DNA of 23,876 nt, taken from positions 1 through 23,876 of IMG/VR virus record IMGVR_UViG_3300037584_000120; one strand, given 5' to 3'. This document shows, in pieces, positions 3,094-22,273 of the stretch. How positions within the stretch are numbered: the first letter of the stretch is position 1; each line of letters opens with the position of its first letter. A program made the translations under genes and the position numbers. The notes beneath the pieces are model-generated. The model was not told the origin of the DNA and did not search any database. It worked only from the letters and a program-made list of their open reading frames with translations. Source of the stretch: a virus.

Positions 3094-3426
3094 ATGTCAA
3101 CTTCATTAGAAGGTTTATTAGGTAATGTATTAGGATCATCTGGAAAATTACCGAAACAGTATTGGCTCGATGAAGCAAAACTAGATAGACGTTATTACGG
3201 CAAAGCAAAACGTTTAGCTAAAAAGCTAGGTTTATGGATCGAGATTGATAATGTTTCAAATGGTTTCGGTGAGCCAGTATCTAAAGGTCAATGGATATGC
3301 GGTGATTCTGATTTTTATAAATCTTTGCCTCATGTTGATGATGGATTCTTTTCAACATCATGGTCAGAATGCCACGACAATTTATTGGCCATTCAAGATG
3401 AACTATCTAAATTATCTAAGGAGTAA
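3094..3426 (+). CDS. Unknown 110-aa protein with its own strong promoter and boxA leader
   Basis: Starts at ATG 3094, six bases after AAAGGGAG. The protein is soluble and has a basic helical part around residues 28-45 (AKLDRRYYGKAKRLAKKLG), a beta part with WIEID and GQWICGDSDFY, and a C-terminal helix rich in Glu and Lys (QDELSKLSKE). I recognise no family. It has a dedicated extended -10 promoter, a boxA-like element and a hairpin in its leader, and it points against the late operon, ending 12 bp before the terminator hairpin. Such an isolated, strongly driven small gene suggests an early or host-takeover role, or a regulator; that is inference. Codon use looks like that of the neighbouring phage genes. 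Confidence 0.75.
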   Translation: MSTSLEGLLGNVLGSSGKLPKQYWLDEAKLDRRYYGKAKRLAKKLGLWIEIDNVSNGFGEPVSKGQWICGDSDFYKSLPHVDDGFFSTSWSECHDNLLAIQDELSKLSKE

Positions 3427-3438
3427 TATTAAAAGGAT

Positions 3439-3454
3439 GGGGGCGCAAGCCCCC
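3439..3454 (-). terminator. Perfect GC hairpin between converging operons
   Basis: GGGGGC-GCAA-GCCCCC: a 6-bp all-GC stem with a GNRA (GCAA) loop. On the minus strand it is followed by ATCCTTTTAATATT, which gives a short T run, so it fits best as the terminator of the long leftward late operon 40 bp after the FecR-like gene. On the plus strand the flank is TGACTTAAAA, so it may also work weakly for the 110-aa gene. Confidence 0.7.
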
Positions 3455-3493: not shown

Positions 3494-4624
3494 TTAACTT
3501 CCCTGTTTGATATTGATTATAGAACTGCCACCACCATTTGTGATAACTTGATTGACCTTACCTTCTTGTTCTATTCTTATGCTGTATGATCCATCCTTCG
3601 ATACTTGCATTTGTAAGTTATCTTCTACTTGTCTAATAAACTTAACTTCACTATCCGTAATAAATGTATTTATCTGGGTATCACTATCGTATCCAATATC
3701 TGTACCTCTAATACCATCGGATGATAATGCTTTGTTTGCTTTTGAGAGTTCATCAATCTCTTGTATTACATCCAGTAAATCCTCAAGAAAATTAGCAGCA
3801 AGGTAATCTATATCTAATTCAGTGTATTCAAGATCATCTTCTTGTAATTCATCGGTATCGAGTTCATCAAATTCCAATAAATCAACATCCAATATATTGT
3901 CTGCTTTGGTATTGTTTTCTTCTGTTTCTGATTCTTCATTTTCTGGTGGGTTTACAATTAACATATTGTCAATCATGGATAGATCAAGATTTAAAACTAC
4001 GCCTCTTGTCGGTGCTGTTTCAAAGTTATATACAGTAGTGGATTCATAGGGTTTAGTAAGAACAGTTTCTCCTAATGCCGTGTAAACCACTATCTCCCCA
4101 CTCGCTTCCCCGCTTGCATCAGGCAACAAGATAATCAGGGCCTCTCCTGTTTCTTTTACAGTGATTGTGAAATCCGTGCCACGAATACCAACTGTAGCCG
4201 AGTTCGTTCTAACAGTGATGTTGTCTTTAGGTATGCGTTTTGTTTTGCTTGAAATAAATCTGCCAGTGCCTTTTACAAAATTGATTGCCATACTAGATTT
4301 ATTTGGGTCAGGATCAAAAACAAATTCATCCACCACAACCTGACTGTGTTCTGTGAGCCGTATCGTTGTGTCATCTCGAAAAGTAACGCCCATACGACCA
4401 TTAGCTGTTTCCAAGCGATCATAAGAATTAAGAGAGAAATCAATAATACTTTCATACGGCTTATCTCTAACGACTCTGGTATTGCCTTTTAATTCTGTGA
4501 TGTTGCCAATGTCAACATCCAACGCTTGTGCCTTGATCGTCCTGGTTAATACACACGCTGCCATTATTGCCAGAAGAAGTAACGCGTAGCCAATCGTTGT
4601 CTTGCGTAGATTGTTGGTCAACAT
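3494..4624 (-). CDS. Secreted FecR-domain protein with C-terminal curlin-like repeat
   Basis: A 376-aa exported protein and the last gene of the late operon. ATG 4624 follows AAGGT by a normal distance. A signal or anchor segment (residues about 10-28, GYALLLLAIMAACVL) ends near IKAQA-LDVD. Residues about 40-155 are a FecR domain: GRMGVTFRDDTTIRLTEHSQ, then INFVKGTGRFIS and TVRTNSATVGIRGTDF. FecR domains are periplasmic/extracellular beta modules in signalling and surface proteins. Residues about 228-300 are a highly acidic linker (EESETEENN, DELDTDELQEDDLE). A second GIRGTD occurs near residue 304. The last 30 residues contain IRIEQEGKVNQVITN, which matches the curlin pattern Q-x-G-x-x-N, and end NIKQGS. 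It overlaps the curlin-like gene by 113 bp. An amyloid nucleator or anchor role (CsgB-like) is inference. Confidence 0.8.
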   Translation of the reverse strand: MLTNNLRKTTIGYALLLLAIMAACVLTRTIKAQALDVDIGNITELKGNTRVVRDKPYESIIDFSLNSYDRLETANGRMGVTFRDDTTIRLTEHSQVVVDEFVFDPDPNKSSMAINFVKGTGRFISSKTKRIPKDNITVRTNSATVGIRGTDFTITVKETGEALIILLPDASGEASGEIVVYTALGETVLTKPYESTTVYNFETAPTRGVVLNLDLSMIDNMLIVNPPENEESETEENNTKADNILDVDLLEFDELDTDELQEDDLEYTELDIDYLAANFLEDLLDVIQEIDELSKANKALSSDGIRGTDIGYDSDTQINTFITDSEVKFIRQVEDNLQMQVSKDGSYSIRIEQEGKVNQVITNGGGSSIINIKQGS

Positions 4625-5219
4625 CAAACGACCTTGAGTTACCATCGTGTTCCAACTTGAAATAAGCACCCGCATATCCATCTCCATCATAATTTACAGT
4701 ATTACTATCTCCATCTAAATCAATATAGTTGGTTGCGCTATCAACATCAAGGTCAATGTTTACTGTGTTGCTTGCACCTTGCACTATCGTGTCAATGTCT
4801 GCACCACTTGCTAAAGAGTTAGTCGCTAGATCAAGTGTAAATGTATTAGTTGATCCATCTACATCAACATTTACATTCGCGTTATCTGCCGAGTTTGAGT
4901 TGCCAGCATCAACTTGAATAGTATATAAGTTGGTATCACCATCAAAACTAAACAGCCCTGTGAATGAATCTGCATTGATGTCACCTAGCATCTTGTTATT
5001 ATTACCTATCTGGTTTACATCTAATGTCATTGTAGTACCATCAAGATCAAATGCAGTCATAGAGCCGTGTGCTGACTGTAATCCGCCAATTATATTTCCA
5101 GAGCCTAACTGCTCTAAGTCAATGTTCGCTGTAGCACCAACTTGATCTACATAGATTTCGTTATCGTCAGCTATTGCGCTACACGATAACAATAAAAATA
5201 AACTAATTAATTTCTTCAT
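4512..5219 (-). CDS. Curlin-like secreted repeat protein (CsgA-like)
   Basis: A 235-aa protein with an N-terminal signal peptide (MKKLISLFLLLSCSAIA, cleavage likely before DDN; the C13 lipobox is imperfect). The mature chain is made of alternating short strands and Q/D-x-G-x-x-N turns: VDQVGATANIDLEQLGSGN, LDVNQIGNNNKM, VDGSTN, VQGASN, LDGDSN, HDGNSR. The first units match the curlin motif; later ones replace Gln by Asp, giving an acidic, Asn/Ser/Gly-rich chain expected to form a beta-solenoid amyloid. It is longer than E. coli CsgA (about 150 aa) and ends with two cysteines (VCINQDDQGTSVGC). It directly follows csgG with a 17 bp overlap, so it is the probable substrate of that pore. Other beta-solenoid adhesins are the alternative. 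Confidence 0.75.
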   Translation of the reverse strand: MKKLISLFLLLSCSAIADDNEIYVDQVGATANIDLEQLGSGNIIGGLQSAHGSMTAFDLDGTTMTLDVNQIGNNNKMLGDINADSFTGLFSFDGDTNLYTIQVDAGNSNSADNANVNVDVDGSTNTFTLDLATNSLASGADIDTIVQGASNTVNIDLDVDSATNYIDLDGDSNTVNYDGDGYAGAYFKLEHDGNSRSFDVDQQSTQDNDWLRVTSSGNNGSVCINQDDQGTSVGC

Positions 5220-6063
5220 ATTCCCAATACCCCTTGCTAATTCCTATCTTAATTATTTGTAATACTCCTTGTTCGATTGATTGTTGCAATGCGATTGATG
5301 TACTTTCATTCTCTGCTGCGCCACCTTCTATTTCGACTAACTCAGTTCCATTAGATATAAAACGAAACAAGTCTTGCGACAGCCCTACTGAGATAATACT
5401 TTTATTTATCAATACTTCAATTAAAACTTCCCCTGTGGAAACAGAAACCAAGCGTAATGAAATAGTAATTAAATCTTCCCGATACTCTTTAGAGCTTCCT
5501 ATCCCCAAATAACGCGCACCCATCCCGCCACTCCTAATATTAGAATCTATGGATAGCACGGCTCCTTGAATCAACAGTCCCGCCAACAAAAGAGGTTTGA
5601 CAGCACTCTCCTCGTCAAAAGTTTCTCTTGTTGAGCGTATTAATTGCCTTTCTTTGGTCAAACTGTCTAATCCAACTCGTTCTGCTACTTGAAAGAACTC
5701 ACCATTCGATGCGTGTTTTAATGCTCTAATTAAAAGTGCTTCTGGTGCTTGAGTAATAGCGGTTGAGAATAAGGCGAAGGATCCATTCGATTTGCGCGCT
5801 CCTGTCATATCTTTAAAGCTATTTGGATATACAGCTATTACTGGTTTTCTTTTTGCTGGCTTTAGATTTAGAAGTTCTTCGTTTTGTAGCTCTAGTATTG
5901 ATGCTTTTTCTATTACTATATAAGGCAGACCGCCTTCTTCTAATAGAGAGCTATATCTTGGCGCACAACTAGAAAGTAAAATCACCGATAGGAACAGAAA
6001 TTTCAGTCTTATGTTCGTTTTCGTCAGTAATTGTAAGTGTAATTGTATCTTCTTCAACAACAT
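5203..6063 (-). CDS. csgG: CsgG-family outer-membrane curli secretion lipoprotein
   Basis: About 286 aa. The lipobox LSSC (Cys33 with this start) marks an outer-membrane lipoprotein. The CsgG hallmarks follow: FSTAITQAPEALLIRAL (97-114), GLDSLTKERQLIRSTRE (131-147), SNIRSGGMGARYLGIG (174-189), ISLRLVSVSTGEVL, DLFRFI, and a C-terminal helix SIEQGVLQIIK with GISKGYWEY. CsgG forms a nonameric pore that exports curli subunits. Length and motif order match E. coli CsgG (about 277 aa). The start is uncertain: ATG 6063 is the nearest plausible codon, and the whole signal peptide is then encoded inside the end of csgF in another frame, with the Cys codon immediately after the csgF stop. In the constriction loop the Phe of FSTA is kept, but the positions of Tyr51 and Asn55 in E. 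coli appear changed to Gly and Leu. Confidence 0.92.
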   Translation of the reverse strand: MLLKKIQLHLQLLTKTNIRLKFLFLSVILLSSCAPRYSSLLEEGGLPYIVIEKASILELQNEELLNLKPAKRKPVIAVYPNSFKDMTGARKSNGSFALFSTAITQAPEALLIRALKHASNGEFFQVAERVGLDSLTKERQLIRSTRETFDEESAVKPLLLAGLLIQGAVLSIDSNIRSGGMGARYLGIGSSKEYREDLITISLRLVSVSTGEVLIEVLINKSIISVGLSQDLFRFISNGTELVEIEGGAAENESTSIALQQSIEQGVLQIIKIGISKGYWEYEEIN

Positions 6064-6412
6064 ATTCAATCGTATTACCTTCAAGCTCCAGCTTGCCTGA
6101 TTTTTGTGGTGTTTCGCCAAACAGTTGTTCTACCATTTGACGGCTTAACTGTGCATAGATACGAGATTCCAAGTTGCGTATAAATCTTGCCAGTGTTGTG
6201 TTATCCGCTTCTCTTGCGAGTTCGTCTTGGTATGCTTGTATTTCATCTTTAATGCTCTGCCTTCTTGTGTTCTCTTGATTCTCGATTGTTAAGTAATGTG
6301 AAGAACTGTTAACACCAGAAAAGCTAGGGCTTTTAAATCTGAATGATATTTCATCTGCAACTAAATTACTTGCAAATAATACCAATAAACTAATCTTTAC
6401 GCTGATCTTCAC
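5969..6412 (-). CDS. csgF: CsgF-family curli assembly protein
   Basis: 147 aa. A signal peptide ends at SNLVA-DE (residues 19/20). The mature N-terminus ISFRFKSPSFSGVNSSSHYL corresponds to the CsgF segment 'FxFxxPxFGG', the part known to insert into the CsgG pore. A long helix pair follows (QDELAREADNTTLARFIRNL), then the beta C-terminus NTIEYVVEEDTITLTITDEN ending in EISVPIGDF, matching the CsgF C-terminal domain. CsgF couples the pore to subunit nucleation at the cell surface. It starts with GTG at 6412, behind AAAGG, overlapping the previous gene by 23 bp, and overlaps csgG by 95 bp. Motif, length (E. coli about 138 aa) and neighbour csgG agree. Confidence 0.9.
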   Translation of the reverse strand: MKISVKISLLVLFASNLVADEISFRFKSPSFSGVNSSSHYLTIENQENTRRQSIKDEIQAYQDELAREADNTTLARFIRNLESRIYAQLSRQMVEQLFGETPQKSGKLELEGNTIEYVVEEDTITLTITDENEHKTEISVPIGDFTF

Positions 6413-21126: not shown

Positions 21127-21366
21127 CTACCTTGAGATTAATCTATCTATTTTTGATTCTAAATTATCCAATCTTTTAAACAATCTTTCCATATCTTCTA
21201 ACAAATCAATTTTAGTCACATACCGAGTTGGCAGTTCTTCTCTTGTTTTATTAAGCAATATATCTATTCTTTTCATTTCTGTTGCGTTATTTCTTATACC
21301 ATAAATTAATGGAGCGTATATTAATGTTAAAATAACATTCCAAAGAAAAAAAGGATTTATGTCCAT
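21127..21366 (-). CDS. Small membrane protein with coiled coil after lysozyme, spanin-like candidate
   Basis: A 79-aa protein. One hydrophobic segment occupies residues about 6-23 (FFLWNVILTLIYAPLIYG), followed by a helical coiled coil ending LEDMERLFKRLDNLESKIDR. Its start overlaps the lysozyme gene by 10 bp, so it is the third gene of the lysis cassette. An N-terminal membrane anchor with a coiled-coil periplasmic part is the layout of i-spanin (Rz-like) proteins. No lipoprotein partner (o-spanin) is visible nearby, so the call is tentative; it could equally be a holin regulator. Confidence 0.6.
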   Translation of the reverse strand: MDINPFFLWNVILTLIYAPLIYGIRNNATEMKRIDILLNKTREELPTRYVTKIDLLEDMERLFKRLDNLESKIDRLISR

Positions 21367-21794
21367 GCCTTGCTTGCGAAAAGTAATGCTTCCGCACCTC
21401 GTCTTTTAACCAAACCTTTATTGACAACCCCAGCACTTTTATTCCATCTTTGCATTTGCTCTGGCACTTCATTGTATTTTTCTTCATTAAGAACTTTTAA
21501 CATAGTGCTTGACTTTAAGTTGCCCGCACCTAAATTGAATGTCCATGATACCAAAGCATCGAATTGATTTTGGTTTAAATCAACTGTAACTAATTTATCA
21601 ACATTATCTTCAAACTCTTTTAAATCTTGTTGCAGTAATGCTTCAGCTGTTTCTTCGGTTATGTGCATATTTTCTACCACATCTTTTGTGTGACCATAAC
21701 CAATCGTTAAAACATTGGCACTACATAAGTAAGGCTCTAATCGACAACCTTCAAAATGCTTAATTAAATCTATTCCGTTCTGAGAAGTTTCCAT
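21357..21794 (-). CDS. GH24 lysozyme (endolysin)
   Basis: A 145-aa phage muramidase. The catalytic arrangement E15-x8-C24-x5-T30 is visible in HFEGCRLEPYLCSANVLT, followed by IGYGHTKD, the usual GH24 'G-Y-G-H' strand. Helical lobe and QFDALVSWTFNLGAGNL (the conserved 'F-x-x-L-x-S-F-x-F-N-x-G' motif) and the C-terminal GLVKRRGAEALLF are intact. It cleaves peptidoglycan and ends infection. There is no signal peptide, so it depends on the holin encoded just upstream; the two genes share a TAATG stop/start. Length matches T4-type/P22-type phage lysozymes. Confidence 0.95.
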   Translation of the reverse strand: METSQNGIDLIKHFEGCRLEPYLCSANVLTIGYGHTKDVVENMHITEETAEALLQQDLKEFEDNVDKLVTVDLNQNQFDALVSWTFNLGAGNLKSSTMLKVLNEEKYNEVPEQMQRWNKSAGVVNKGLVKRRGAEALLFASKAWT

Positions 21795-22273
21795 TAGTCC
21801 TTGCTACCACCATTAGATGCACCAAAATAAAAACTAATTACAGCACTTGCTAAACCGCCAAGGTAGCCGAGAACTAAGTTAATGAGTGCCTCGCTGTTCT
21901 GCTCTGGTGGTTGTAGTGTTACTAAAAATATATAACCCATAAATCCACCCAAAGTAGCAATACCCATAATTCGAGTTGTCCAATCTTTAGAAAACTTACC
22001 TCTCGCATCTTGTATGTCTTTTGTTTCCAAAGCATATAAATCAACATCTAACTCTTTCATCTTAATTTCAAAATCAGTATCTATCTTTTTAAGTTCTGCG
22101 AGTTGCTCTGGCGTTGCTTGTTGTACTGCTTGCTCTATCTTCTTTGGCGTTGGCTCACAACCAAGTGCATCAGCTACCATATTGGCTGCCATGTTACCCA
22201 TAGGCCCACCAAGAGCAGTGCCTATTGTAGGTGCAACAGCACCTATTAAGTTTTTAACAAATTTAAATTTCAT
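21794..22273 (-). CDS. Holin, 3TM (GTA-type)
   Basis: A 159-aa protein. A Gly/Ala-rich hydrophobic N-terminus (IGAVAPTIGTALGGPMGNMA) is followed by a helical charged stretch (TPEQLAELKKIDTDFEIKMK). Two clear transmembrane helices follow at residues about 102-120 (IMGIATLGGFMGYIFLV) and 129-151 (LINLVLGYLGGLASAVISFY), and the protein ends in SNGGSKD. This matches the 3TM holin family first described from gene-transfer agents. It opens the inner membrane for the lysozyme encoded next, with which it shares TAATG. Strong by layout and neighbour. Confidence 0.85.
   Translation of the reverse strand: MKFKFVKNLIGAVAPTIGTALGGPMGNMAANMVADALGCEPTPKKIEQAVQQATPEQLAELKKIDTDFEIKMKELDVDLYALETKDIQDARGKFSKDWTTRIMGIATLGGFMGYIFLVTLQPPEQNSEALINLVLGYLGGLASAVISFYFGASNGGSKD

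Follow-up and report, generated by a model that had tools for sequence, protein, structure and literature searches.

A phage-borne type VIII secretion (curli) gene cluster whose relatives recurrently adjoin lysis genes

A marine phage recorded in IMG/VR (virus record IMGVR_UViG_3300037584_000120) carries a gene cluster that is, on balance, best read as a phage type VIII secretion system (T8SS; curli) module, probably serving as a late, lysis-timed exporter of curli-like material. The record, a fragment of 23,876 bases, is referred to here as the window. Open reading frame (ORF) and profile searches find four genes at positions 3494-6412 on the minus strand, all real and phage-borne: csgF, csgG, the gene for a secreted repeat protein (the putative substrate), and the gene for a FecR-domain protein. 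The original prediction, which was made from the DNA letters alone, described these four genes correctly and overlooked a fifth constant gene upstream of csgF, here called Up1.

How might such a module work? CsgG would form an outer-membrane pore into which CsgF plugs. The substrate, an acidic curlin-like beta-solenoid, would be the cargo exported through the pore, and the exported FecR-domain protein, tipped by a curlin-like unit, would help with assembly or anchoring. Up1 would belong to the lysis repertoire as a small protein of the inner membrane. With these parts, the infected cell would export curli-like material around the time of lysis, and the phage may benefit if neighboring hosts or debris are held near the released progeny, an effect proposed previously as “sibling capture” (PMC7029224). 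Curli clusters of ocean phages are abundant and published. Their joining to lysis genes, together with new readings of the genes labeled “histidine kinase” and “iron regulator,” leads to a testable lysis-stage timing that separates the competing proposals.

The pore and its partner

CsgG scores 152.5 bits against PF03783 (cut-off 20.8), and CsgF scores 60.8 bits against PF10614 (cut-off 25.8). The original prediction had staked itself on these two profiles, and both match; the motifs that it quoted (SGGMGARYLGIG, FSTA, the lipobox LSSC, and FRFKSPSFSG) are all found. The solved E. coli CsgG in the PDB matches the window protein at 5.6e-37, and the lipobox is kept in 51 of 53 relatives. The constriction of E. 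coli CsgG has Y51, N55, and F56; in the alignment, the phage protein retains the F, has L in place of the N, and is missing the Y. CsgF matches the solved CsgF only weakly by sequence (0.27 as a single sequence, 0.025 as a profile). Its F-x-F-K-x-P-x-F-x-G region is conserved, with F26, P29, and F31-G33 invariant, and can be aligned to E. coli CsgF, where the counterpart N-terminal segment binds inside CsgG. Homology and these conserved motifs suggest that the two phage proteins would assemble into a CsgG-CsgF pore.

The proteins predicted to be exported

What would pass through the pore? The AlphaFold (AF2) model of the substrate, from 35 relatives, has a mean predicted local distance difference test (pLDDT) score of 80.3; it consists of beta strands throughout, in strand-turn-strand units that form a beta-solenoid. 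VIA-align, which re-aligned PDB candidates supplied by Foldseek, gives as its top match Pontibacter korlensis CsgA (8c50; Z 18.0, 199 residues, 19% identity, root-mean-square deviation 8.8), and it scores the fibril of E. coli CsgA (8enq) at Z 12.1. SufB/SufD solenoid chains score Z 15-17 by the same method, making the fold class firm and the family less so; fold similarity alone is no proof of family. Foldseek itself gave no PDB match with E below 0.001, meaning that the CsgA match comes from VIA-align only. The substrate has 8 G-x-x-N turns, when shuffles that preserve its composition give 2.8 (p = 0.003); over 53 relatives, the values are 7.7 versus 2.7. The best BFVD matches are phage proteins annotated “Curlin associated,” and a profile search of PDB sequences returned antibody chains only. 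The mature protein is strongly acidic, with a net charge of -32 versus -6 in E. coli CsgA. The predicted fold, the signal peptide, and the complete co-occurrence with the pore support the view that the cargo is a secreted, acidic, curlin-like beta-solenoid. In its podophage form, the substrate has two invariant cysteines near the C-terminus (window 4512-4560), which a disulfide could link; the myophage form lacks both.

The FecR-domain protein matches FecR PF04773 at 44.8 bits (cut-off 24; 1.7e-11) and phrog_37870 at 2.4e-63. Its C-terminal unit has the ending IxIxQxx in 46 of 47 relatives and QxGxxNxVxxN in 31 of 47. Structure prediction for this protein is poor (pLDDT 43.2) and better for the C-terminal strands (blocks near 70), the only part of the model that was used. 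The published reading of this protein as an iron regulator is doubtful, because a Pfam scan of the protein found no FecR anti-sigma domain and because the protein, read from its likely start, reaches the hydrophobic segment after only about 10 residues. Most likely, the protein is an assembly or anchoring factor and not an iron regulator.

Linkage and selection

CsgG has relatives on at least 590 IMG/VR contigs. CsgF and Up1 precede CsgG in all 115 viral loci with enough flanking sequence, and the substrate and FecR genes follow CsgG in all 97 phage loci with enough flank. Independent seeding from the substrate finds CsgG in 62/62 loci and CsgF in 56/56. These sets of loci overlap and were selected by similarity, such that they show linkage rather than frequency across all phages. 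The median ratio of nonsynonymous to synonymous substitution rates (dN/dS) is 0.09 for Up1, 0.17 for CsgF, 0.11 for CsgG, 0.08 for the substrate, and 0.09 for the FecR-domain protein. All five genes, the substrate gene included, are under strong purifying selection. An adenylate cyclase gene accompanies 20 of the 67 loci with room for it; there is none in the window.

Up1 is a constant neighbor upstream of csgF, with two copies in some loci. The gene before csgF is labeled “histidine kinase” in PMC9599517, and its position, copy number, and shortness suggest that it is the same gene as Up1. Neither HisKA/HATPase nor any other kinase domain was found in any of 21 Up1 relatives (85-117 aa), and the histidine kinase identity is rejected for this short coiled-coil protein with one transmembrane (TM) helix. 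Searches of the PDB with Up1 return coiled coils only; one of them is a HAMP domain (E 0.33), which may explain the kinase label. Holin matches in PHROG are weak (phrog_4898 and phrog_1296, best 0.00096). An annotated phage collection contains relatives of Up1 in just the six records that have csgFG. Among 372 alphaproteobacterial genomes, Up1 occurs only in one metagenome-assembled genome (MAG) that holds phage-like contigs, leaving 0/371 without that MAG. Up1-seeded searches of IMG/VR give 8 distinct loci without csgFG, from an initial 15 of which the other 7 had CsgF farther off or overlapping. A putative holin gene and a GH24 endolysin gene adjoin Up1 in 7 of these 8 loci (L285, L288, L325, L346, L348, L353, and L469). 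These neighborhoods support the assignment of Up1 as a small inner-membrane protein of the lysis repertoire.

Linkage to lysis genes

Many T8SS loci also show an association with lysis genes. Queries with CsgG or the substrate yielded 61 distinct T8SS loci with at least 3.6 kb of upstream sequence. Up1 is present in all 61, and in 38 of them this upstream stretch carries endolysin and/or holin-like genes on the strand of the cluster. By our estimate, a given gene would be expected in about one in ten random stretches of 3.6 kb from a 40-kb genome. In three loci (L318, L322, and L117), the order is endolysin, holin, Up1, CsgF, CsgG, substrate, FecR, with the genes contiguous, overlapping or separated by little spacing. 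On the CsgG tree, well-supported branches require 6 or more changes in the state of lysis adjacency. Hence, the link to lysis is not the accident of one clade, and either repeated gain or repeated loss could account for it. The original prediction called the cluster late-expressed, which is a reasonable inference from its position and gains further support from the physical link to lysis genes in relatives.

What are the functional implications of a proposed late, lysis-timed exporter?

Late timing favors a benefit that involves the lysing cell and the cells around it, such as capture or help with release, and “sibling capture” appears to fit this timing best. Several observations weigh against the proposed exporter. 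First, the substrate scores 9.1 bits against Pfam Curlin_rpt (PF07012), below the cut-off of 20.7, and 2 of 35 relatives reach 0.068 against this profile. Of the four proteins for which a profile check had been suggested, then, CsgG, CsgF, and FecR exceed their cut-offs and the repeat protein does not. Second, the CsgE gate (PF10627) is unmatched in the window, itself a fragment, just as the original prediction had stated. The CsgE gate is non-essential and is absent from some curli systems. Third, the window's own clade has no lysis genes beside the cluster, and Pfam and PHROGs give no function for the window's putative holin. Fourth, Melnitz, a cultured phage that carries the cluster, showed no clumping (PMC9004378).

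A more far-reaching proposal, which we hold only tentatively, is that the lysis program includes the T8SS, which would act late as a single unit with holin, endolysin, and Up1, with the pore and/or the fiber acting in outer-membrane release or in gluing to neighbors. If true, the secretion system would be an egress device.

Several other explanations compete with an exporter of curli-like material. It is rather unlikely that CsgGF mainly permeabilizes the outer membrane or times lysis, with the exported protein being secondary; this extends the pinholin/secretin idea of PMC9004378 to an outer-membrane lysis step. Endolysin and holin genes adjoin the clusters in relatives, Up1 is part of that repertoire, and the scans made recognized no spanin in the lysis region of the window, spanins being easily missed. 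However, a pore alone needs neither the substrate gene nor the FecR gene, which are always present and strongly constrained, and the window has an endolysin and a putative holin elsewhere. Superinfection exclusion, whereby a surface amyloid on the infected cell blocks other phages, was the leading role suggested by the original prediction and was also raised in PMC9599517, and seems quite unlikely; the two other roles in that prediction, host-cell aggregation and egress, may still apply. A surface coat could mask receptors, and the cluster is both retained and selected. Nonetheless, superinfection exclusion normally acts early, such that the late, lysis-linked placement fits it poorly and speaks against it, and the searches gave it no specific support. 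It is highly improbable that ungated CsgG imports nutrients such as cofactors and siderophores for phage production, as proposed in PMC9599517: the lack of a CsgE match in the window and the presence of a FecR-domain protein are compatible with import, but CsgF and the constrained curlin-like substrate would be unexplained, and the few residues ahead of the hydrophobic segment of the FecR-domain protein, with no anti-sigma domain, make iron signaling unlikely. The hardest to credit is the idea that the curlin-like and FecR proteins belong to the virion or tail and only look like curlins, which would suit the position of their genes at the end of a structural operon but not their signal peptides, their obligate linkage to CsgG and CsgF, or the location of the cluster in myophage HTVC008M, away from structural genes.

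Genomic context and related records

The gene identities, phage origin, and operon-like arrangement given in the original prediction are borne out by the ORF calls, the profiles, the overlaps, and the same-strand phage genes. Neighboring genes of the cluster overlap by 113, 17, 95, and 23 nucleotides when inner starts are used. Capsid, scaffold, adaptor, and tail genes share this strand and leave few gaps, and the curli cluster makes up the final genes of this nearly gap-free structural operon. Positions of the cluster, of a terminator-like hairpin, and of the window's lysis genes are listed in Table 1. The 79-aa protein beside the endolysin has an architecture resembling that of an inner-membrane spanin. 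A 110-aa ORF at 3094-3426 on the plus strand is convergent with the cluster and has no PHROG match. Rfam and tRNA searches of the window were empty.

Table 1. Positions of the cluster genes and associated features in the window.
Feature	Position	Strand	Properties
Up1, 116 aa	6390-6740	minus	One N-terminal TM helix and coiled coil; conserved charged C-terminus
csgF	5969-6412	minus	GTG start; signal peptide; N-terminal FRFKSPSFSG segment; PF10614 2e-16
csgG, outer-membrane pore lipoprotein	5203-6120 (TTG) or 5203-6063 (ATG)	minus	Lipobox LSSC; PF03783 1.3e-44
Curlin-like secreted substrate, 235 aa	4512-5219	minus	Signal peptide; about 8-9 beta-arch units; G-x-x-N turns
FecR-domain exported protein, 398 aa from first ATG	3494-4690; likelier start ATG 4624	minus	C-terminal curlin-like unit
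Terminator-like GC hairpin	3439-3454	minus	3' of cluster; consensus scan only
Lysis genes (three)	21127-22273	minus	About 15 kb upstream of cluster
Putative holin	21794-22273	minus	Assigned from TM segments and position only
GH24 endolysin	21357-21794	minus	Phage_lysozyme 9.7e-50; phrog endolysin 2.5e-63
79-aa protein	21127-21366	minus	N-terminal TM and coiled coil; beside endolysin; weak PHROG lipoprotein match

For the major capsid protein, identity is 44% with Pelagibacter phage HTVC106P and 52% with a Microcystis phage, so the capsid does not fix the host. The GC content is 37.5% for the window versus 32.1% for HTVC106P.

Some records required separate treatment. Phage-like T8SS contigs (L072-L075 and L077) lie within MAGs labeled Maricaulis, Flavobacteriaceae, Rhodobacteraceae, and Pelagibacter; they are probably mis-binned virus DNA and were set aside as likely phage contigs. 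OR851715.1 (1,499 bases), named as a Salmonella phage, encodes CsgG and is probably host chromosome. In a small CsgG tree, the phage sequences and one gammaproteobacterial sequence (L076) fall apart from the alphaproteobacterial and the other gammaproteobacterial sequences; this tree did not reproduce an origin of the cluster in alphaproteobacteria. With L076 on a long branch and no fixed root, no conclusion on the origin is drawn from the tree.

Comparison with known systems

The cluster has been published for pelagimyophages (PMC7029224), for Melnitz (PMC9004378), and for HTVC023P-type podophages (PMC9599517), and the window holds a further example of this kind, which is common in ocean phages. 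The original prediction was right that curli-like genes were known in marine phages, but undersold what had been published: pore, partner, and substrate had already been described together (PMC9599517). The HTVC023P-type T8SS has the same order as the window, with upstream short gene(s), CsgF, CsgG, CsgA/B, and FecR; both have a complete pore and substrate, and both lack CsgE, CsgC, and CsgD. The window differs in its single upstream gene and in lacking both an adenylate cyclase and a second curlin gene. The readings also differ, since here the upstream gene is taken to encode a membrane protein of the lysis repertoire and not a histidine kinase, and FecR is given a structural, not a regulatory, role; endolysin or holin is not mentioned in PMC9599517.

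Pelagimyophage HTVC008M (KC465899, PMC7029224) and Melnitz (PMC9004378) have the same five genes in the same order, with 46% and 43% identity, respectively, to the window CsgG. They differ in their T4-like genomes, and in having an extra second curlin gene and an adenylate cyclase. PMC9004378 states that csgA/B are lacking; contrary to this, the Melnitz records annotate curlin-repeat genes downstream, two of them in Melnitz-3 (L071 6716-9510).

Bacterial curli operons, represented by E. coli csg and ten proteobacterial loci, resemble the phage cluster in having CsgG, CsgF, and adjacent curlin genes, but our searches found Up1 or FecR adjacent in none of these. A gammaproteobacterial contig (L076 6604-11704) has a chromosomal curlin-CsgF-CsgG-curlin-curlin-FecR cluster that lacks Up1 and has acyl-CoA dehydrogenase-like genes as its flanks. 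This example of FecR in a curli cluster of a bacterium contradicts a statement excluding it from bacterial T8SS operons. Within the library of open-access papers searched, no report was found of an experimental function or of a link to lysis genes. Relative to these known systems, the additions made here are the re-reading of Up1 as a membrane protein of the lysis repertoire and the recurrence of lysis genes upstream of the clusters.

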